This document shows, one piece after another, positions 12,477-58,288 of a stretch of DNA of 64,000 nucleotides. Numbering within the stretch: position 1 is the stretch's first letter; every line of letters starts with the position of its first letter. This DNA is from a virus. Where the stretch lies: the IMG/VR virus record IMGVR_UViG_3300025000_000067, positions 1-64,000 of that record. One strand, written 5' to 3'. Made by a program: the position numbers and the translations under genes. Under the pieces are notes generated by a model, which did no database searches, was not told the DNA's origin, and worked only from the letters and a program-made list of their open reading frames with translations.

Positions 12477-12552
12477 TGGCGCGTAACTCAGTGGTTAGAG
12501 TGCCGAGCTTATACCTCGGAAGTCGTTGGTTCAAACCCAACTGCGCCAACCA
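12477..12552 (+). tRNA. tRNA-Ile, anticodon UAU
   Basis: All four arms are regular: acceptor TGGCGCG/TGCGCCA, D arm ACTC-AGTGGTTA-GAGT, anticodon arm CCGAG-CTTATAC-CTCGG and T arm GTTGG-TTCAAAC-CCAAC. Discriminator A and CCA are encoded at 12549-12552. Anticodon UAU reads AUA directly. Most bacteria instead read AUA with a lysidine-modified CAU tRNA, so this phage supplies an unusual decoder for a codon its genes use often. Confidence 0.92.
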
Positions 12553-31714: not shown

Positions 31715-31760
31715 GAAAGAGCCCGTGGTTACCTCAGATGAGGGCCACAGGCTCTTTCTG
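31715..31760. terminator. Bidirectional hairpin/terminator (copy 2)
   Basis: AGAAAGAGCCCGTGG pairs with CCACAGGCTCTTTCT with one mismatch. It lies between convergent genes and resembles the hairpin at 31054. Confidence 0.7.
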
Positions 31761-32642
31761 TTTACCATACCATATAGGCCCCAAGGGATCTTCTGAAGCC
31801 AATTCATTTGATGTAAAGAGCCACTGCAGGTCAGTATTGTCTATTCCATAGATAGCGTTCCTCAGCCTCAGAGCGCGGTCTAGGTTTGTCGTGACTGTTA
31901 GGATAAGGGGGAAGGTTCCATAGATCGATTCAAAGCTTTTAGAGGCATAGTAGGCTGTATAGCGCTGGTGTTTCCTTTGGAAGACCGGTAGGCTCATGGT
32001 TCCATTGTCTAATTCTAGGAAAAAGTGGATACCTTCATCTTCTGAAAACCAATACTGGCCATAAGCATCCGGATTACATACCATCTTCTTCCCCCAGAAG
32101 GTGAAACTATGTCGGGTATGGTTTTCTGTTCTGTACCCGGTAACTTCATGCTTATGTTTTCGAGCATTCCGGAGAAGTGAAATGTAGAAGTTATTGATGT
32201 CTACCATATGCTTAAGGTACGGAAGTCTTGTTTCGTTCATTTCATAGGACCATGATAGTTCTTCTACTTCTTGGTTAAGAAGTCCGGCTACAATCTTGGC
32301 ACCCAGTTTATCAAGGATAATATGGCCTTGGCTTGTTCCTTCATTCCCAATGTCTACAAAGAATCGGTCAACGAGTTGAGCATCAAAAAGTTTTCGGATC
32401 CTTCGTCTTGCAATAAGCTCTGATTGAGAGTTTTCAAGTCCTTTAGAGTTGTATCTGTAGTGCATTTCAGCTATTTGTCTGGTGGTTAAGCAGCGTTGAT
32501 AGTAGATAGATAACAGGACTTCTCTATCCCTTGGCGTTAACATAGGGTTCTGGTAAACTTCTCGTATTGACCGCTCAGTGTCCCCCTGTTTTCTGACGAA
32601 TTTATTAATCCTTCGTGAGGTAATTTGTCTAGTTTCTAGCAT
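31734..32642 (-). CDS. Replication-relaxation family protein
   Basis: The 302-aa protein begins with a winged helix: LTPRDREVLLSIYYQRCLTT, RQIAEMHY, LIARRRIRKLFDAQLVDRF. The second half (RHSFTFWGKKMVCNPDAYGQY, then FFLELDNGTMSLPVFQRKHQRY) matches the replication-relaxation family (PF13814 type). That family is usual on plasmids and integrative elements of Bacillota beside TraG-like ATPases. It is encoded directly after the ATPase gene here. The role is probably control of initiation or of transfer of element DNA. Confidence 0.78.
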   Translation of the reverse strand: MLETRQITSRRINKFVRKQGDTERSIREVYQNPMLTPRDREVLLSIYYQRCLTTRQIAEMHYRYNSKGLENSQSELIARRRIRKLFDAQLVDRFFVDIGNEGTSQGHIILDKLGAKIVAGLLNQEVEELSWSYEMNETRLPYLKHMVDINNFYISLLRNARKHKHEVTGYRTENHTRHSFTFWGKKMVCNPDAYGQYWFSEDEGIHFFLELDNGTMSLPVFQRKHQRYTAYYASKSFESIYGTFPLILTVTTNLDRALRLRNAIYGIDNTDLQWLFTSNELASEDPLGPIWYGKQKEPVALI

Positions 32643-32653
32643 ACCCTATCCTC

Positions 32654-35131
32654 CTACTTAACTCTCTGGATCTTACCTGTGGCCTTCCCAGTCTTTATAG
32701 AAGCACTCTGGTCTTCGGTAATCTGATTCTTTTGGATGGTACTATATCGGGCTTCTATGTCATCTTTTATTTCTGAGATATGCTTATAATTCCTAGTTTT
32801 ATAAGCATCTTTCCATTTCTTAACTTCAGCTAGCCCAACACTAGGAAAGTAGTCATCCATGTTAAGACAATCAAAAGTGAAAGGACTTGGGTGGATCTTT
32901 TTAAACCGTCCGTAGCCTGTATACTGAACCATAGATGTTAGGTCCTCTTCTGTAACTTCCGGCAGCATACGTTTGATTTTAGGTGCTGAAGATGTCCCTA
33001 TGAGTAGGCTCACTTGGGTGAAGGTGTTGTCTTCGATCATGCCCATAAGCTTAGCTGGGATCTGTTCAACGCTTTGATGGGCTAGGACTAAACCTAGGCC
33101 ATAGCTTCTGGCCATTTCTAAGAAACGCTGAATATCAGATTCTTGGTCGAGGAACATCTCAAATTCGTCTAAGATGGCCACATGGGGTATCCGTTTATCG
33201 ACTTCTGTATCCCCTCTACTAAATACCGCTTTACTGATAAAGGCAGTGAATAGGGTTCCGAAGAAGGAGATAATTTCGTTTTCGTTTTTGTCTAGCGCAA
33301 AGTTGACTATAATAATTGCTTTTTCGTCTAACATCTTTCTCCATTTATACAAGTTTGTCTTTTGACACATGCTATACCGCGGTAATTCATTTTGGGTAAT
33401 GACCTCAAGCTTATTAAGGATAGCTTTAGACTCTGCTTGGCGTGCTCTAATCTTCATGCCTTTGTAGCTTTGCCAGTAGCTTAGGACATCCGGAAATTCT
33501 GTGTCATCTTCCATCTTAGCTAGGGTCCAATCTAAATAATCTTCATCTGTGAACATGCGGTAGACTTCTAGTATAGATCCTTCAGGATTTGTGCTTATGA
33601 CTGCAATGAGGGCTCTTCTGAGGATGCTTTGACTGTGCTCCTTAATAGAACCCTCACTATTGAGTTTTAGGAAGACAGAGACGATCATAGTGGCCAGATT
33701 GTAGGTGCTCATACCAGGCTGTATCAGGAAATTAAGAGGTATAAACTGCGCTATGTCCTGAAGGTCAATGTAATGTACCCGGTGCCATTCACTTTTTGGA
33801 AGATGGGCCATTAGTTCATCGGCCACATCTCCTTTAACGTCAAAGAAGGTCAGACCACAGTGTCTTATAATTTGAAGTCCTAAGAACGATAGCCACCAGC
33901 TTTTTCCGCTACCTGTTCCACCAATGCAGTAGACATGTTGCATAAGCATTTTAATATCTTTAAAAGCTAGGTATTTTAGACGACCTCTAAAGTTTGATCT
34001 TCCGAAGACAATAGCTTGGTCTTTCCACGCTTCTTCAATGGTATTGTACTGATAGACTCCATCAGGTACAGGCATTTTTTTAGCCTGCAGTCGTATGATT
34101 CCTGGGATGTTCTTTGCTGGGAAATGGAGGATCGTTGCAAGCTCTGCTGGGGTAACATAGTTTTCAATAGGGTATGTATGAATTCTTCTTGCTGCATAGT
34201 CTTTCAAGAATTGACTTACCCCGTGTTGGTTAAATAATCTTAAATGTCTTTTATAGTATTTTTCTCGGTAGTCAGAGAAGGGTCTAAAACGATTTTTATC
34301 AGTGGCTGGTGCAAAGGAGCTAATAACTGTGGATAAGCGTGCTCGGGCTTTACCGAAGGCATTGTGGCTGCATACGAGACGTATTTCTAAGTCAAAATAA
34401 ATACCGGCTTCTAGTTTCTTTTGAATTGAGTTTAAACTGGTGTTATGGTCTTTTGATCCAGCATTGCCTGTGAGGGTATAGTGTATAGCTCCTAGTAATG
34501 CTTTGGGGGTTTTCATTAGTCCAGTCCATTTAGCATATGGGTAGTGCATGCGACTAGGTCGTTTACCTGTTTTTTTATATATTTCGTAGTGGCTATTGGC
34601 TATGACTAAGGCTCTATAGGGTACAGGTCTTAGGGTAAATTGAACCCATACTTCTTCTTCATCATCTAGGTTTTGCATGGAGGCGCATAAACTAGCTATC
34701 ATATCTGCTCCGATGCGTTCACCGTCTGACTGTAGAAGATTAAAGAGATAATGGCTGTCAAGTTCTAGCGTGGCACAGGCTACGTTTAAGGCATAGAGTC
34801 TTCCGAAGCGTCCGTAATCTTTTTTAGGTGTAATAATTTCTGCTGATTTGTGGATAGAGTTTATATTGCTCTGGATAAAATCTTTTTCTAGATTTTTTGA
34901 AAGCCAAGTGTATAGGTTAATACCTTTATTGGTTCCTTGGAACTCAAAGCTTAACCAGTCATAGGGTTTTTTAGGGTTATATATCGTATAGAGAGAATCA
35001 AATAGACTATTGTACTGAGATGGCTTAAATTCAGAATCTTTTTCAATGAGTATTTGGTATAGGTTCCCATTCTTAGATCCACTGCTTAAGCGTTTTCGGT
35101 GAATAGGGTACATTAGGCTTTTTATGATCAT
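32654..35131 (-). CDS. TraG/VirD4-like ATPase (coupling-protein type)
   Basis: The 825-aa protein has a Walker A CIGGTGSGKSWWLSFLG near 416, FFDVKGD near 443, Walker B HVAILDEFEMFL near 655, and the arginine/Gln region ARSYGLGLVLAHQSVEQIP. These are features of the VirD4/TraG/TrwB and FtsK-like DNA pump family. The first 400 residues are a plasmid-specific domain without clear membrane helices. Two small membrane proteins encoded upstream may anchor it. The likely job is moving DNA or substrate across a membrane or between cells, in a phage context. Confidence 0.82.
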   Translation of the reverse strand: MIIKSLMYPIHRKRLSSGSKNGNLYQILIEKDSEFKPSQYNSLFDSLYTIYNPKKPYDWLSFEFQGTNKGINLYTWLSKNLEKDFIQSNINSIHKSAEIITPKKDYGRFGRLYALNVACATLELDSHYLFNLLQSDGERIGADMIASLCASMQNLDDEEEVWVQFTLRPVPYRALVIANSHYEIYKKTGKRPSRMHYPYAKWTGLMKTPKALLGAIHYTLTGNAGSKDHNTSLNSIQKKLEAGIYFDLEIRLVCSHNAFGKARARLSTVISSFAPATDKNRFRPFSDYREKYYKRHLRLFNQHGVSQFLKDYAARRIHTYPIENYVTPAELATILHFPAKNIPGIIRLQAKKMPVPDGVYQYNTIEEAWKDQAIVFGRSNFRGRLKYLAFKDIKMLMQHVYCIGGTGSGKSWWLSFLGLQIIRHCGLTFFDVKGDVADELMAHLPKSEWHRVHYIDLQDIAQFIPLNFLIQPGMSTYNLATMIVSVFLKLNSEGSIKEHSQSILRRALIAVISTNPEGSILEVYRMFTDEDYLDWTLAKMEDDTEFPDVLSYWQSYKGMKIRARQAESKAILNKLEVITQNELPRYSMCQKTNLYKWRKMLDEKAIIIVNFALDKNENEIISFFGTLFTAFISKAVFSRGDTEVDKRIPHVAILDEFEMFLDQESDIQRFLEMARSYGLGLVLAHQSVEQIPAKLMGMIEDNTFTQVSLLIGTSSAPKIKRMLPEVTEEDLTSMVQYTGYGRFKKIHPSPFTFDCLNMDDYFPSVGLAEVKKWKDAYKTRNYKHISEIKDDIEARYSTIQKNQITEDQSASIKTGKATGKIQRVK

Positions 35132-35367
35132 GCTGTCATACCACCTTTGACTGCTTCTTTAATAATATTCCATAGGAGCTGGCCAAGGTCTGTTATTGCT
35201 TGACCGGAGTGTAAGTAGAGTACTAACGCATCACGTTTTACTTGTAGGGCATAGATAACTAAATTACACATTTTAACTATAAAGATTAAGATTACACCAG
35301 TAAAAACACTACCGAAAGTTATCTTTAATATCCAAGATTCAATCTCGTTATGTGAAGGTATATGCAT
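35128..35367 (-). CDS. Small membrane protein of the transfer-like module (79 aa)
   Basis: The start overlaps no other gene, and its stop overlaps the ATPase start by four bases. One hydrophobic segment, ILKITFGSVFTGVILIFIVKMCNLVIYALQ (split here by position 15-45), is followed by an amphipathic end. It is likely cotranslated with the ATPase and anchors it, as T4SS accessory proteins do; this is inference. Confidence 0.6.
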   Translation of the reverse strand: MHIPSHNEIESWILKITFGSVFTGVILIFIVKMCNLVIYALQVKRDALVLYLHSGQAITDLGQLLWNIIKEAVKGGMTA

Positions 35368-35376
35368 AATATCCTC

Positions 35377-35823
35377 CTAAACGCTAAGTAACGTTTTACA
35401 AGCAGCATAGATATCATTAAATAACCCAATAACTTCATAAAGTATAATTCCACCACCGACAAAGGCAACAAGAGGAATAACATCACCGCGTCCTGTAAAC
35501 TTTAAAAATGAACTTACAACTAAAGTAAAAAAGCCAACAACAAGCATATGGAGTAATATAGCTCCTTTCCCTCCCCAAAAACTTGTAGGTACGACTGTTC
35601 CTGATGTAACAGCTAGCGCTGGGTGCATAAAGTTAAAGAGAGCTGAACCAGGTAGTAGAATATTAAGAGTTGTAAAAGCTATACTAGGTGCTAAAGCAAC
35701 AGCTAGATTAACTATTTTTTGGTGTTTTTTGTACCAACGTATAAAACTTCGATTAATAAATACTAATTCAGAATCTAAATACTTTAATTCAGACAACTTT
35801 CCAATTACTTGTACTTTTTTCAT
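35377..35823 (-). CDS. Multi-pass membrane protein of the transfer-like module (148 aa)
   Basis: Hydrophobic segments lie near 40-60 (VNLAVALAPSIAFTTLNILL), 85-105 (AILLHMLVVGFFTLVVSSFL) and 110-130 (VIPLVAFVGGGIILYEVIGL). A basic N-terminal part (SFIRWYKKHQK) precedes them. Topology recalls VirB2/TrbC- or VirB6-like subunits, but no family match is claimed. It is the first gene of the unit that contains the ATPase. Ribosome binding site AAAGGAAG. Confidence 0.6.
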   Translation of the reverse strand: MKKVQVIGKLSELKYLDSELVFINRSFIRWYKKHQKIVNLAVALAPSIAFTTLNILLPGSALFNFMHPALAVTSGTVVPTSFWGGKGAILLHMLVVGFFTLVVSSFLKFTGRGDVIPLVAFVGGGIILYEVIGLFNDIYAACKTLLSV

Positions 35824-36080: not shown

Positions 36081-36425
36081 CTACCATATCTTTAGTTGAA
36101 ATCGTTGTTTCCTTGGAAACCAAGAAATCAACTTATCACTCAAAATATGAACAACAGCTCCTAAAGCTATAAACTCAAAAACTACTACACCAAACAATAA
36201 GAAAGGAAAAGCTAACAATAAAATACCAAATAAGCTATGACAATGCCCTCTGTGTTTCATCCATCGACTAAAAATATTATATCGACCCAATGTTGATGTT
36301 CGGAGATCAATATCAGGTAATAGACTTCCAAAAAGAATACAAAAAAACAATAAAGGACTTTGAACTATAAACAACCCAACTACTGATCCTATAATAAGAT
36401 GACCTAAAAAGTTGAATACAATCAC
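36081..36425 (-). CDS. YdjM-like membrane-bound metal-dependent hydrolase (short)
   Basis: The sequence GHLIIGSVVGLF, LFGSLLPDIDLRTSTLGR and MKHRGHCHSLFGILLL follows the YdjM pattern, with His/Asp metal ligands between membrane helices. At 114 aa it is shorter than chromosomal homologues. Some members are induced by DNA damage. It is the last gene of the ParM transcription unit. Confidence 0.7.
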   Translation of the reverse strand: MIVFNFLGHLIIGSVVGLFIVQSPLLFFCILFGSLLPDIDLRTSTLGRYNIFSRWMKHRGHCHSLFGILLLAFPFLLFGVVVFEFIALGAVVHILSDKLISWFPRKQRFQLKIW

Positions 36426-36489: not shown

Positions 36490-36744
36490 TTAGAATTTAT
36501 TTTTATACAGAATATTAGCTTTTAAAGATCCCTCAGGCTGCTTTTTAACTGTAGGCTCTTCAGGTATTACCCAAGGTTCAGGAGTCTTAGGGACTTCTGG
36601 AATAGCCCTCATCACTGGCGACCCCTTCTCTATCTGCATAGCTTTACGGTAAACCTCTTTAAGTCGTCCGGTCTTATTCTTATACCGCTCCAAATCTCTT
36701 ATAATATCTGCATCATCTGTAGGATGTAACCTAAACCCAGCCAT
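36490..36744 (-). CDS. parR: ParR-like adaptor protein
   Basis: The 84-aa product starts MAGFRLHPTDDADIIRDLERY, then GRLKEVYRKAMQIE. This resembles the ribbon-helix-helix N-terminus of ParR proteins (usually H/N-P-x-DDxDI...L...R...I/V-R-KAL). The C-terminus is Pro-rich and probably binds the actin filament. It follows parM by eight bases, the usual order in type II partition operons. ParR binds the parC repeats and links plasmid DNA to ParM filaments. Confidence 0.7.
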   Translation of the reverse strand: MAGFRLHPTDDADIIRDLERYKNKTGRLKEVYRKAMQIEKGSPVMRAIPEVPKTPEPWVIPEEPTVKKQPEGSLKANILYKNKF

Positions 36745-36752
36745 AGCTTAAA

Positions 36753-37730
36753 TCACCCCTCTGAGAGCTTAAGAAGCCCGTATTTCCGGTAACCATTAGC
36801 ATTTGCAAGCTCTGCATTATCCATAGTAAGGCAAGGTACACCTGTAAACTCAGTAATGTAGTCTGTATAAACATGAGCCCCACCACCACAAAGGATCACC
36901 GCTGAAAACCTTCTGAAGTCTGGTATATGAAGACTAAGCTCATCTTGTAGTGTAGGTAGCCTGACTTCAATAGCCTTTCTAACAAGTTCATGAACCTCTA
37001 CCTTTTTACCACCTAGCTTTAAAAGACCTGTACGTAAGACTCGATCCACTTCCATAGGCTGAGGTAAAAAACTAAATGAGTGTGAGATAAGCTTTCTAAG
37101 TTCTTTTTGTACTTCATGAACTCCTTCCCAGATAGTAAAGGAGTCCTGTGAGAAGGCACCTTCCTCCATTATGCATCCATCCGTTGACTTACCACCTATG
37201 TCAAGGATTAAGAGGTCTTCAGAAGCCAGCTCTGTGTTCCTCTCTTCCCCCTCAGCATCCAGTACAAAGTCAAAAAATGCCCCGGCAGACTGGGGAAGGA
37301 CTAAAGAATCATTGACTTTAACAAGGCGCTGCACAGCATTAAAGCCGAAGTTAAAACCCCCCTTTAACCGTTCAGCAAAAGCTAGCTTAGAAGCTTCACG
37401 CTTATACTCTTCAACCGGTAGGCCAGATACAAGTAAATCAATAATACTAACACCTGTAGATTCTTGGTAGAGTCCTAAAATTGTGAGTAACTTCGGTAGA
37501 TCCGATTCAGAGGACAACCGCTCAGACTTAAAATCAAAAGATCCTTTAGACCCTACGTTCCATGATCCCCCATGCTCCGTTGTAATAAGATATCCTTCTG
37601 AATCATTTAGATCTCCCATAATAACTTCTGAACGCCTTTTGCTAAGTGACGGGCAAGTATCATCCCAGTCTTTTCCTACCCCTTTAAGTTGGACAAAGCC
37701 AAGGTCAGCACCAACTACATTTTTCTTCAT
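36753..37730 (-). CDS. parM: ParM-like actin-family segregation ATPase
   Basis: The 325-aa protein carries the actin-fold nucleotide motifs: VVGADLGFVQLKG at 4-16 (phosphate 1), LILDIGGKSTDGC near 176 (phosphate 2) and VILCGGGAHVYTDYI near 283 (adenosine). These match ParM/Alp-type bacterial actins. Such filaments push replicated plasmids apart. Upstream lie repeats that could be parC, and a ParR-like gene follows. Its presence implies that the phage genome is kept as a low-copy plasmid in lysogeny. Confidence 0.85.
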   Translation of the reverse strand: MKKNVVGADLGFVQLKGVGKDWDDTCPSLSKRRSEVIMGDLNDSEGYLITTEHGGSWNVGSKGSFDFKSERLSSESDLPKLLTILGLYQESTGVSIIDLLVSGLPVEEYKREASKLAFAERLKGGFNFGFNAVQRLVKVNDSLVLPQSAGAFFDFVLDAEGEERNTELASEDLLILDIGGKSTDGCIMEEGAFSQDSFTIWEGVHEVQKELRKLISHSFSFLPQPMEVDRVLRTGLLKLGGKKVEVHELVRKAIEVRLPTLQDELSLHIPDFRRFSAVILCGGGAHVYTDYITEFTGVPCLTMDNAELANANGYRKYGLLKLSEG

Positions 37731-37740
37731 TGTTTAACCA

Positions 37741-37872
37741 GCTCCTTATTTGTTGAACACTCCGTTAAACACTATTCAACAAAGCTTAGTTATATCCTGC
37801 TTAGAGTGTTAAACATTTGATAAAACAACTATACTCCTACGCTATTATGTGTTAAGTATATAGGGACTATCT
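37741..37872 (-). repeat. Iteron-bearing region upstream of parM (candidate parC)
   Basis: Variants of TTNAACACT recur in both orientations: TTGAACACT (37753), TTAAACACT (37765), AGTGTTAAA (37805) and GTGTTAAG (37850), with CAACAAAG between. Type II centromeres lie in this position and both bind ParR and control the promoter. Confidence 0.55.
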
Positions 37873-39625: not shown

Positions 39626-40408
39626 ATGAATGAAATTACAGGACCTTTAGAGTTACGAGATGACTATACATCCATAATCGTTAGTTACTCAACAGGCATA
39701 GACTCAACAGGGGCCTTAGCCAAAGCCTTAGAACTTGCTAAGAAGTTACCACGAAAGACCAAAAAGTTTCTGCTTTATTGTGACACAGGTATGGAGTACA
39801 AAATTAATACTGGGTTATTCTACCAAGTAGCAAAAGCGTTTAAATTAGTACCAGTGCTACTTCAGAATGAAAAAACCTTTCTAGATATCCTACTTGAGCG
39901 CCAGAAGTGGCCGGATATGAAAAATCGTTGGTGTACCTCCTATCTTAAGACAGGAGTAACAGATAAATGGATCAGAGCAAATCGTCACATGCTAGGAGAG
40001 AGGGTGCTGTTTATAACCGGGGAGCGCCGGGATGAAAGTCCACGTAGAGCAAAGTATCCAGAATTGGATTGGCAAAGCACTACGCTCAAAACAGAGCGGA
40101 AAGGTAGATTCATATGCCACTGGTATCGGCCTGTTCTTGACTTTGAGAAGGGTAAAATGTTTGAGTATGGTAAAAAACTCCATATTCCCCCGCACCCCTG
40201 CTATGAGTATGTGAATAGATGTAGCTGCATGTTCTGTGTTTTCATGATGGATAAGCATACTATTGAGAATATGAAAAACCATCCTCAAGACGCACAGAAA
40301 TGGTTACAGGCAGAACTAAAGATAAATCACACCTGGAAGAACAAGATGAGCTTAAATAAGCTCTGGAATGAAAACTGTGAAGAAGCCCCTATGAATATCA
40401 TTGTCTAA
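39626..40408 (+). CDS. PAPS reductase/DndC-family PP-loop protein
   Basis: The PP-loop SYSTGIDSTGALAKAL near residue 18 fits the SGGxDS consensus of adenylyl-sulphur transfer enzymes, with Thr and Ile in place of two Gly. RWCTSYLKTG near 101, GERRDESPRRAKYP near 131 and the Cys cluster NRCSCMFCVF near 200 match the PAPS-reductase/DndC branch. Such phage proteins may act in sulphur chemistry, including DNA or tRNA modification; the substrate is not visible here. No DndA/D/E gene is seen nearby. Confidence 0.78.
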   Translation: MNEITGPLELRDDYTSIIVSYSTGIDSTGALAKALELAKKLPRKTKKFLLYCDTGMEYKINTGLFYQVAKAFKLVPVLLQNEKTFLDILLERQKWPDMKNRWCTSYLKTGVTDKWIRANRHMLGERVLFITGERRDESPRRAKYPELDWQSTTLKTERKGRFICHWYRPVLDFEKGKMFEYGKKLHIPPHPCYEYVNRCSCMFCVFMMDKHTIENMKNHPQDAQKWLQAELKINHTWKNKMSLNKLWNENCEEAPMNIIV

Positions 40409-55349: not shown

Positions 55350-55457
55350 ATGAGAAAACAGCTATGCGAGTTACATGGTAAGGACACCTATGAAGAGTGC
55401 CTACAAACTATCTTAGGTAATAAGGAGTTAGATGAACAGGTACATACCTATGAATGA
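55350..55457 (+). CDS. Possible micro-protein (35 aa) overlapping rha
   Basis: ATG 55350 opens MRKQLCELHGKDTYEECLQT and ends inside rha. It lacks a strong ribosome binding site and overlaps the next gene by 26 bases. It may be a leader peptide or spurious. Confidence 0.25.
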   Translation: MRKQLCELHGKDTYEECLQTILGNKELDEQVHTYE

Positions 55458-56022
55458 ATTAACTAAGATAGTTGTTGAAGGCGATATCTTTAAAGTAGAC
55501 AGCAGAATTATTGCTAAAAACTTTGAAAAGGACCACAGGCACGTATTACGAGATATTGATAATCTAATTGCGCAAATAGATGTGTCCAAAATTGGGCACA
55601 TCTCTGAAAGCTATTTTGTGCCAGCTAAGTATGCAGATGTGCATGGTAGGGTACAAAGATTCTATGATATGACTTTTAGAGGTTTTATACTTCTTACTAT
55701 GGGTTTTACAGGGGAAAAGGCATTTGCTTGGAAATTAAAGTACATTGATACTTTTGAGTGGCTGAGACAAGAGTACTTAAAAAAGCTAAAAGTACCTGAG
55801 CATCCCTTTATAAACCTAGCTACTATGACAGGTCTTCAAATGGATGTTTTTGAGCGTTTTGTGCCAGATGGTATGACGCTGAGGGAAGGGGCTTTTTGGT
55901 TTAATACAGACTTCTATAAGGATATAATTAGATCCTATGAAAAGGGAGTAAGGAAGTTTGAGCGTAAACAAGCTAGGCTAAAACAAAAGAAATTAGAATC
56001 ATCTTCAGAAGTTGAGGACTAA
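55432..56022 (+). CDS. rha: Rha-family phage regulatory protein
   Basis: The 196-aa protein matches pRha: DSRIIAKNFEKDHRHVLRDI near 20, then ISESYFVPAKYADVHGRVQR and YDMTFRGFILLTMGFTGEKA, then FAWKLKYIDTFEWLR. Rha proteins are DNA-binding regulators of temperate phages that can interfere with host factors. ATG 55432 follows AAGGAG; ATG 55450 is an alternative. The C-terminus is a basic coiled coil. Its presence supports a temperate lifestyle. Confidence 0.85.
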   Translation: MNRYIPMNELTKIVVEGDIFKVDSRIIAKNFEKDHRHVLRDIDNLIAQIDVSKIGHISESYFVPAKYADVHGRVQRFYDMTFRGFILLTMGFTGEKAFAWKLKYIDTFEWLRQEYLKKLKVPEHPFINLATMTGLQMDVFERFVPDGMTLREGAFWFNTDFYKDIIRSYEKGVRKFERKQARLKQKKLESSSEVED

Positions 56023-56470: not shown

Positions 56471-58288
56471 ATGGAGGGCTTCTCACGACAGGAGATATTT
56501 GACTATCAAATACGCACTAGGCCCTCTATATGGGCTCAGTACCACACTAAGCTAAGGGGAAAGCCTTATCGCTTCGAACAACTCAATCCTGATGGCTCCT
56601 TGGACCTACGGAAGGCCTTTCAGATATCCCCTCAAGAGCAGAATATAGGGCTCCGTGGTCAAAGGCAGTTTCTTCAGCAAATGCTAGATGACCAGCACCC
56701 ATATAAGTCAGAACAGAAGTCCCGGCAATGTGGGGCCAGTGAGAACGAGGTTAGAGAAGTCTTATGGTTTGCTGATACTCATCCCTACTCATCTATCGTC
56801 TATGTCTTCCCAACGTTTGACCAAGTGGCTGACTTCTCAAAGACACGGATCGAGGAGGTTATGAGAGAGTCACCTCATGTGAAGAGTCGTATGGGCTATG
56901 ACCCAAAGACAGGTAAAAAGAGGCAGGGTGAAGATCCTGTGGACAATGTACGACTACGGAAGATGGGGGATAACAGCTGGCTCTATTTCCGTAGTGGTAG
57001 TACACCAAAAGCCGGAGAAGGAATACCATGCGACGTGGTTGTGTTCGATGAGATCGACAGAATGGCACCAAATGTCATGATTGCCTTCAATGAAACGCTG
57101 TCATCCAGCGCCTATGGATGGAGAAGGGACGTATCAACCCCTAGCCTCCCTGGTGTAGGTGTGAATGCAAGCTTCAAAGATTCAGATCAACAGCATTGGT
57201 TTATGAAATGCCCACACTGTAATCATTGGACTACGATGATACATGACTTTCCGAAGGGTGTAGAGCAGCTTACTGTAGACCGCCATGATCGGCCAAATCA
57301 CAACTTGCATCTAGTCTATGACTGGGTGCAGGAGTCAGACAGGTACATATACACTTGTTTGAAGTGTAAGAGACCTATTAGTGACGAAATGCGGATCAAT
57401 GGCATATGGCAACCGCTCTACCCTCATAGAGATCGAATCAGGGGTTATCAAATAAGCCAACTTATGTGCCCGTGGATAAGCCCTAGCCAACTCATGCAGA
57501 AGAAAGCTGACTATAAGCTAGAGCAGCTGTTTATGAACTATGTTATTGGCCTAACCTACCTTGGGGACAATGTCATGATATCTAAGGGGGATATTCTTAG
57601 ATGCTGTGATACGTCGCTTACGAATCCCTATGACCTCAGAAGGGATCGTGTGTGTCTAGGTGTAGACTGGGGTAACACATCGTGGGGTACTGCTGGCATG
57701 CCTCATCCAGATAACCCAAGTAAGATCATTATTCTGGACATATGGGACGTTAAAGATGATGAAGCAGTGACTACAGATGGCCGGAAGAACAACCCACATA
57801 TATCGAGGACCGCTGATAAGATGAGACAATGGGATGCTAAACGTGGGGTATTTGACGCAGGCTATGGCAAGGACCGTAACTGGGAGCTTATGCAAGTATT
57901 CCCGGGTAAAGTATTTAGCTGTTTCTACCCTAATCTGTCAACGACCTCAACGAAGAATGTAGATGATCAGTGGCACGAGGATGAGGCCAAGGTTAACGTT
58001 GATCGAACACTAGACCTTAAGCTTATGGCCCGGATGTTTAGAGAAGGGCTCTTTGTGATACCAGCATGGGTTGTGCTTAATCCGCTCTTTGAAACCTTCT
58101 TTATCAAGCACCTAACCAACATTGTCCTGATAAGAGATATTGAAGAAGATGAGAAGACTAAAAAAGAGATCATATCTGAGAGAGTGGGCACCCTTCCAGG
58201 TGGAGATCACTTTGCCCATGCAACGAACTATTTGACAATCGCCTTACGGAAGGTTGGTAAAGGTGGCGGGGGAGATTTCTTTTTCTAG
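56471..58288 (+). CDS. terL: Terminase large subunit (GpA-like)
   Basis: The 605-aa packaging motor contains QKSRQCGASENE near 75 (adenine/Walker A region of GpA-type terminases), VVVFDEIDRMAP near 185 (Walker B and catalytic Glu) and a zinc-binding insert CPHCNHW...CLKCKRP. The nuclease half has CLGVDWGNTSWG near 396 and FDAGYGKDRN near 455 with acidic residues for metal. It cuts concatemers and pumps DNA into the prohead. It is followed by small genes, an Ig-like protein and the portal. Confidence 0.9.
   Translation: MEGFSRQEIFDYQIRTRPSIWAQYHTKLRGKPYRFEQLNPDGSLDLRKAFQISPQEQNIGLRGQRQFLQQMLDDQHPYKSEQKSRQCGASENEVREVLWFADTHPYSSIVYVFPTFDQVADFSKTRIEEVMRESPHVKSRMGYDPKTGKKRQGEDPVDNVRLRKMGDNSWLYFRSGSTPKAGEGIPCDVVVFDEIDRMAPNVMIAFNETLSSSAYGWRRDVSTPSLPGVGVNASFKDSDQQHWFMKCPHCNHWTTMIHDFPKGVEQLTVDRHDRPNHNLHLVYDWVQESDRYIYTCLKCKRPISDEMRINGIWQPLYPHRDRIRGYQISQLMCPWISPSQLMQKKADYKLEQLFMNYVIGLTYLGDNVMISKGDILRCCDTSLTNPYDLRRDRVCLGVDWGNTSWGTAGMPHPDNPSKIIILDIWDVKDDEAVTTDGRKNNPHISRTADKMRQWDAKRGVFDAGYGKDRNWELMQVFPGKVFSCFYPNLSTTSTKNVDDQWHEDEAKVNVDRTLDLKLMARMFREGLFVIPAWVVLNPLFETFFIKHLTNIVLIRDIEEDEKTKKEIISERVGTLPGGDHFAHATNYLTIALRKVGKGGGGDFFF

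Follow-up and report, generated by a model that had tools for sequence, protein, structure and literature searches.

A ParM/ParR/parC-type gene block with an adjoining VirD4-like coupling ATPase in the genome of an SPO1-related phage

The stretch of DNA analyzed here (the window) comprised bases 1-64000 of a 102,131-bp IMG/VR virus record, which had no end repeats and is possibly incomplete. Plus-strand genes predominated in the window; on the minus strand the main block ran from 37730 to 31734, and its first gene encoded an actin-like ATPase of 325 aa, ParM (36753..37730). This protein matched Pfam ALP_N (3.2e-12; 47 bits, cut-off 26), Pfam MreB-like_C (1e-9, above cut-off) and the PHROG 691 'partition protein' (8e-42). 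When a three-sequence ParM profile was compared with the PDB, the ParM proteins of pCBH (6ixw, 1e-13), pSK41 (3js6, 4e-12) and R1 (5e-5) were recovered, showing that the actin-like ATPase of a type II partition system was present. No match was obtained in a viral-contig scan with the single ParM protein, and four were found when the ParM alignment was used.

An ORF of 84 aa (36490..36744, minus strand) started 8 bp after ParM. It consisted of an RHH-like N-terminus, a linker and a conserved C-terminal peptide, and homologs directly followed ParM in three related phages (L014, L019 and L023). In this family the N-terminus resembled an RHH-type segment (FRLNPNTDADIIKDL in L019), and similar C-terminal peptides were present in every ParM-bearing relative (LKANILYKNKF in the window; VKSRLLGNNF, IKSNMLQDF and ILRNMLAGFE). 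The ORF had no convincing match in Pfam, PHROG or NCBIfam, and its profile retrieved only noise from the PDB. Structure prediction of both proteins agreed with the ParM half of the pair, since the better half of an otherwise poor AlphaFold model (pLDDT 46) ranked ParM and archaeal actin on top; the model of the small ORF was of low confidence (pLDDT 61) and contained no strand. When the family was aligned with gp505 of phage G and gp27.8 of SPO1 by hhalign, probabilities were low. The family profile scored the ORFs after ParM in phages vB_BboS-125 and G above all 500 shuffles each, but SPO1 gp27.8 did not score above its shuffles. Judged by its position, its conservation in the three relatives and the shuffle-tested similarity, the ORF is probably a ParR-like adaptor, and its RHH fold is a prediction from the N-terminal segment, given that no family model matched and that the profile exceeded shuffles for vB_BboS-125 and G and not for SPO1. 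An orphan ParR-like gene was also observed at L016:8021-8227 (G002), a 105-kb record with no ParM; its C-terminus departed from the peptide conserved in the ParM-bearing relatives.

The leader of parM (37730..37860) was parC-like, with GTTNAAC boxes and a sigma-70-like promoter at the upstream end. The boxes were TGTTTAAC at 37731, GTTGAACACT at 37752, GTTAAACACT at 37764 and the inverted GTTTAACACT at 37814-37805, with diverged half-sites between them and at about 37855. The 150 bp preceding parM held four copies of GTTNAAC where 0.047 would be expected (Poisson P 2e-7, an optimistic value because the motif was chosen after the region had been seen), and the leader was the densest 100-bp stretch for this motif in the 102-kb record. 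The related phages are a fairer test of clustering: 3 copies were present upstream of parM in L014 (0.036 expected, P 8e-6) and 2 in L023 (0.044 expected, P 9e-4). The L019 leader had no GTTNAAC; a variant (TGTTATAC type) was present there 5 times within about 130 bp, and 3 more copies were spread over the rest of its 22.5 kb. The promoter-like site, TTAACA-16-TATAGT at 37855-37828 on the minus strand, was a consensus match only, and such sites occurred near chance level in the region (23 found, 18.7 expected). Its place at the array's upstream end is the one that autoregulation would require. Clustered repeats upstream of parM and, by consensus only, a promoter were therefore both found, as in type II partition loci.

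The exact sequence GTTNAACACT occurred five times in the 64 kb. Three copies lay in the leader, at 37752, 37764 and 37805, and the other two overlapped the Shine-Dalgarno/start regions of genes. Exact boxes at gene starts elsewhere, together with the lack of a family match for ParR, would fit an ordinary operator for another regulator, next to an unrelated small protein and a ParM relic. We regard this explanation as very unlikely: among the relatives that kept the pair, ParM (51-58% identity) and the small ORF (38-51%) were conserved together, the C-terminal peptide was conserved where ParM was present, and the two outlying boxes coincided with ribosome-binding sites. A genome-wide operator role for the boxes had also been considered, and was dropped on account of that overlap. 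The ParM/ParR/parC-type cassette proposed in the preliminary description was well supported by the ParM matches, the conserved ParR-like ORF and the clustered boxes.

The block extended beyond the partition genes that had been described, down to 31734. ParM and ParR were followed on the minus strand by a YdjM-family membrane protein (36081..36425, 114 aa; PF04307 1.5e-12), conserved in L014, L016 and L019, and by a hydrophobic protein of 148 aa (35377..35823) whose C-terminus resembled SpoIIIAC/AD (weak PF06686, 0.0086; 4.7e-5 and 23.9 bits for the L019 homolog, cut-off 24). A second small hydrophobic protein (35128..35367, 79 aa), conserved in L014 and L019, was encoded by a gene whose end was overlapped by the start of the next, encoding a VirD4/TraG-like coupling ATPase of 825 aa (32654..35131). 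This ATPase matched PF02534 (23.1 bits, cut-off 20.1) and PHROG 5156 (2.5e-47), fell below the cut-off of the NCBIfam VirD4-like CD1115 model (4e-9), and was 63-73% identical to its counterparts in L014, L016 and L019. The last gene encoded a Replic_Relax protein of the SPO1 gp27.3 family (31734..32642, 302 aa; PF13814 2.6e-24; PHROG 9381; tblastn 1e-8 against gp27.3).

The block was preserved in L014/L015 and L019, and the ParR-like gene and leader repeats were kept with ParM in four phages (window, L014, L019 and L023). In the L023 record ParM and ParR were present, with no Replic_Relax or VirD4 match. G002 had the VirD4 part with parM absent, and neither parM nor the VirD4 gene was detected in G009 (TerL 71% identical), indicating that the block is dispensable or that these records are incomplete. 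Allowing for incomplete records, the ParM-VirD4 block is a variable cassette.

The genome carrying the cassette appears SPO1-like by its gene content. Its TerL (56471..58288, plus strand; PHROG 675 2e-123), the terminase of the preliminary description, was nearest to SPO1-type phages, with 32% identity to SPO1 gp2.11 over 98%. A contractile tail sheath match above cut-off was found in the record, which also encoded its own polymerase, primase/helicase-type protein and nucleotide-metabolism genes. Both an SPO1-type TerL and a contractile sheath, as expected of SPO1-like phages (Herelleviridae, Spounavirinae), were thus present; the 102-kb record, without end repeats and possibly incomplete, compares with genomes of 127-157 kb with terminal redundancy in this group (PMC7409376).

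SPO1 itself (NC_011421, Okubovirus) carries a block of the same order, antisense to its neighbors as in the window. Genes 27.9 to 27.3 encode a 'partition protein', a 141-aa ORF in the ParR position, three ORFs of 48-73 aa in the place of the small membrane proteins, a 906-aa VirD4-like ATPase and Replic_Relax. Matches reached 68 bits for gp27.9 with the ParM-family profile, 50-64 bits for gp27.4 and 62 bits for gp27.3, and at 22-27% identity the homologies are real, if distant. YdjM was missing from SPO1, and inspection of the 27.9 leader by eye revealed no obvious iterons. In the VirD4 tree the window protein grouped with two Bacillaceae plasmid proteins (99/98) and the SPO1 protein with other phages; in the ParM tree that of SPO1 grouped with Alicyclobacillus phage KKP_3916 and that of the window with G and MTATph1, groupings that long branches make tentative. 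Orthology of the two blocks was accordingly rejected, with the uncertainty that the long branches bring: the trees argue for similar content and order rather than simple common descent. If they are right, the ParM-VirD4 association came about, or was put together again, on more than one occasion, because they separate the window from SPO1.

Comparable gene sets were found in other Bacillus phages. In vB_BboS-125 (gp17-gp21), ParM, an RHH-like ORF, a LytM peptidase and a VirD4-like protein were consecutive within 6 kb (L030:7001-12545), in the same order as in the window, and this is a further case of the ParMR-VirD4 association. It differed from the window in being a 58-kb Elmenteitavirus (siphovirus by name), in the intervening peptidase, and in that no Replic_Relax was annotated around gp17-gp21. 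Phage G likewise had ParM followed by an RHH-like ORF (gp506/gp505) and encoded Replic_Relax and VirD4-like proteins (gp146/gp156), but its Par genes were about 295 kb from the latter. The repeated association of ParMR with a coupling ATPase of conjugation type is underexplored, and it was perhaps assembled more than once. ParMR and the VirD4-like ATPase/Replic_Relax pair could work as a single machine found again and again in unrelated phages, in which ParM filaments hand phage DNA to a conjugation-type ATPase bound to the membrane, serving its packaging, its transfer or its replication at a membrane anchor. In that case SPO1 and the window group would have built the machine separately, as the trees split their ParM and VirD4. 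We consider such a machine unlikely. The conserved leader repeats, the adaptor and the adjoining coupling ATPase nonetheless offer a testable handle in SPO1, a B. subtilis laboratory phage.

The company of the VirD4-like gene raised the further idea that ParMR and VirD4/Replic_Relax direct phage DNA to a channel in the membrane, through which it would be exported to a neighboring cell. In three Bacillaceae plasmids (L025, L026 and L027), typed as non-mobilizable, the gene order was a VirD4/TraM-type ATPase, a replication-relaxation protein and then conjugation genes of TcpE or PrgI type, and Replic_Relax may belong to the transfer machinery of these plasmids. The window VirD4 adjoined Replic_Relax in the same manner, and it was with two such plasmid proteins that the tree placed it. 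There is also a precedent in R1, whose ParM binds TraD and TraC and whose ParM/ParR stimulate the relaxase (PMC4949242). However, of the coupling ATPase, VirB4 ATPase and relaxase (PF03432) that mark conjugative (type IV secretion) systems, only the VirD4-like protein was found; TIGR00929 matched the VirD4 gene itself, weakly, and no separate VirB4-type ATPase or PF03432 relaxase was detected. The evidence does not support a complete conjugation apparatus and, as the phage has an exit route of its own, delivery of this kind is highly improbable.

The preliminary description had gone on to call the element probably a phage-plasmid, which the present results do not support, as lytic SPO1 has a block of the same kind and the closest TerL proteins are those of SPO1-type phages. 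A low-copy circular plasmid prophage, segregated at division by ParMRC and in no need of an integrase, would account for the complete ParM-ParR-parC layout. The Rha-domain regulator noted earlier was real (55432..56022, plus strand; PF09669 1.1e-25) and is consistent with such a life. So is the record that no integrase had been seen: no tyrosine integrase, serine recombinase or resolvase match was found in the possibly incomplete 102-kb record, an observation equally expected of a virulent phage, and a distant integrase is possible since the record may be incomplete. Plasmid prophages with ParM and RHH proteins (IEBH and B83) are listed in PMC8026635, and the table there also includes the 151-kb B. 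pumilus myophage Bp8p-C, with a ParM-like protein and no recombinase listed.

On the other side, the virion and replication genes were those of a virulent-type myophage. The RHH repressor that had been reported was not identified, and the record yielded no HTH_3-type repressor match and no dimer-resolution recombinase. TerL and VirD4 pattern scans of 84,980 bacterial genomes found no relatives, although absence from a pattern scan is weak evidence. Partition genes without an integrase, the marks of a phage-plasmid, were present, but partition genes occur in lytic SPO1 as well, so that a ParM system alone is no proof of plasmid life; Par proteins are likewise no guarantee of plasmid replication (PMC8026635). 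By rule of thumb spounaviruses are strictly virulent, which is disputed (PMC7409376). ParM in lytic SPO1 was noted in a Genome Announcement, where the role of such proteins in phage replication was called unknown (PMC3853049). A plasmid prophage is therefore a possible but less likely explanation, its stable inheritance is not needed to explain the cassette, and Par genes alone are insufficient to label a phage as a phage-plasmid.

The most likely role of the cassette is to move phage DNA, or to anchor it, while infection proceeds. In our judgment it is probably a functional ParM/ParR/parC-type operon of an SPO1-related contractile-tailed phage that moves or positions phage DNA in the lytic cycle. 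From the gene identities, their order and conservation, and the clustered boxes, we infer DNA binding, filament formation, and the direction and timing of transport as follows. ParR would bind the leader's GTTNAAC boxes and, when bound, would repress the promoter there. By analogy with the parMRC paradigm it would cap ParM filaments through its C-terminal peptide, and in the lytic cycle these filaments would transport phage DNA or set its position. The DNA would probably head to the membrane, the presumed site of the VirD4-like ATPase and of the small hydrophobic proteins that partner it. Precedents for membrane-directed transport are the binding of TraD by R1 ParM and the AlpC/AlpA system of the Corynebacterium prophage CGP3. 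In CGP3, AlpC/AlpA couples the phage DNA to filaments of actin via repeats upstream of the operon, both proteins are required for efficient phage replication, and the DNA is found at the membrane (PMC4446434).

CGP3 AlpC/AlpA/alpS resembles the window in its phage-encoded actin, adaptor gene and upstream repeats, and it serves phage DNA positioning and replication. It differs in that the adaptor gene precedes the actin gene and the prophage integrates, and no VirD4 block is mentioned in the part of the source that was consulted (PMC4446434). The parMRC systems of R1, pSK41 and pCBH share with the window an actin-like ATPase, a small downstream adaptor gene, and leader repeats with a promoter, but the window ParR is just 84 aa and unrecognized by family models, and its carrier is a virulent-type phage. 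Several observations count against a lytic-cycle role: ParR was unrecognized by family libraries, its model was of low confidence and SPO1 gp27.8 showed no similarity above shuffles. The want of obvious SPO1 iterons, the absence of parM from the records of some relatives and the listing of Bp8p-C (PMC8026635) also weigh against it.

Three further features were observed in the record. A tRNA-Ile gene with anticodon TAT (window 12477-12552) was the sole tRNA detected. A PAPS-reductase-like protein (window 39626-40408; PF01507 1e-10) is possibly the product of an auxiliary metabolic gene or of one for DNA modification. An HNH/homing-type endonuclease gene was located on the minus strand between late genes, at L002:389-1291 (record 64389-65291).
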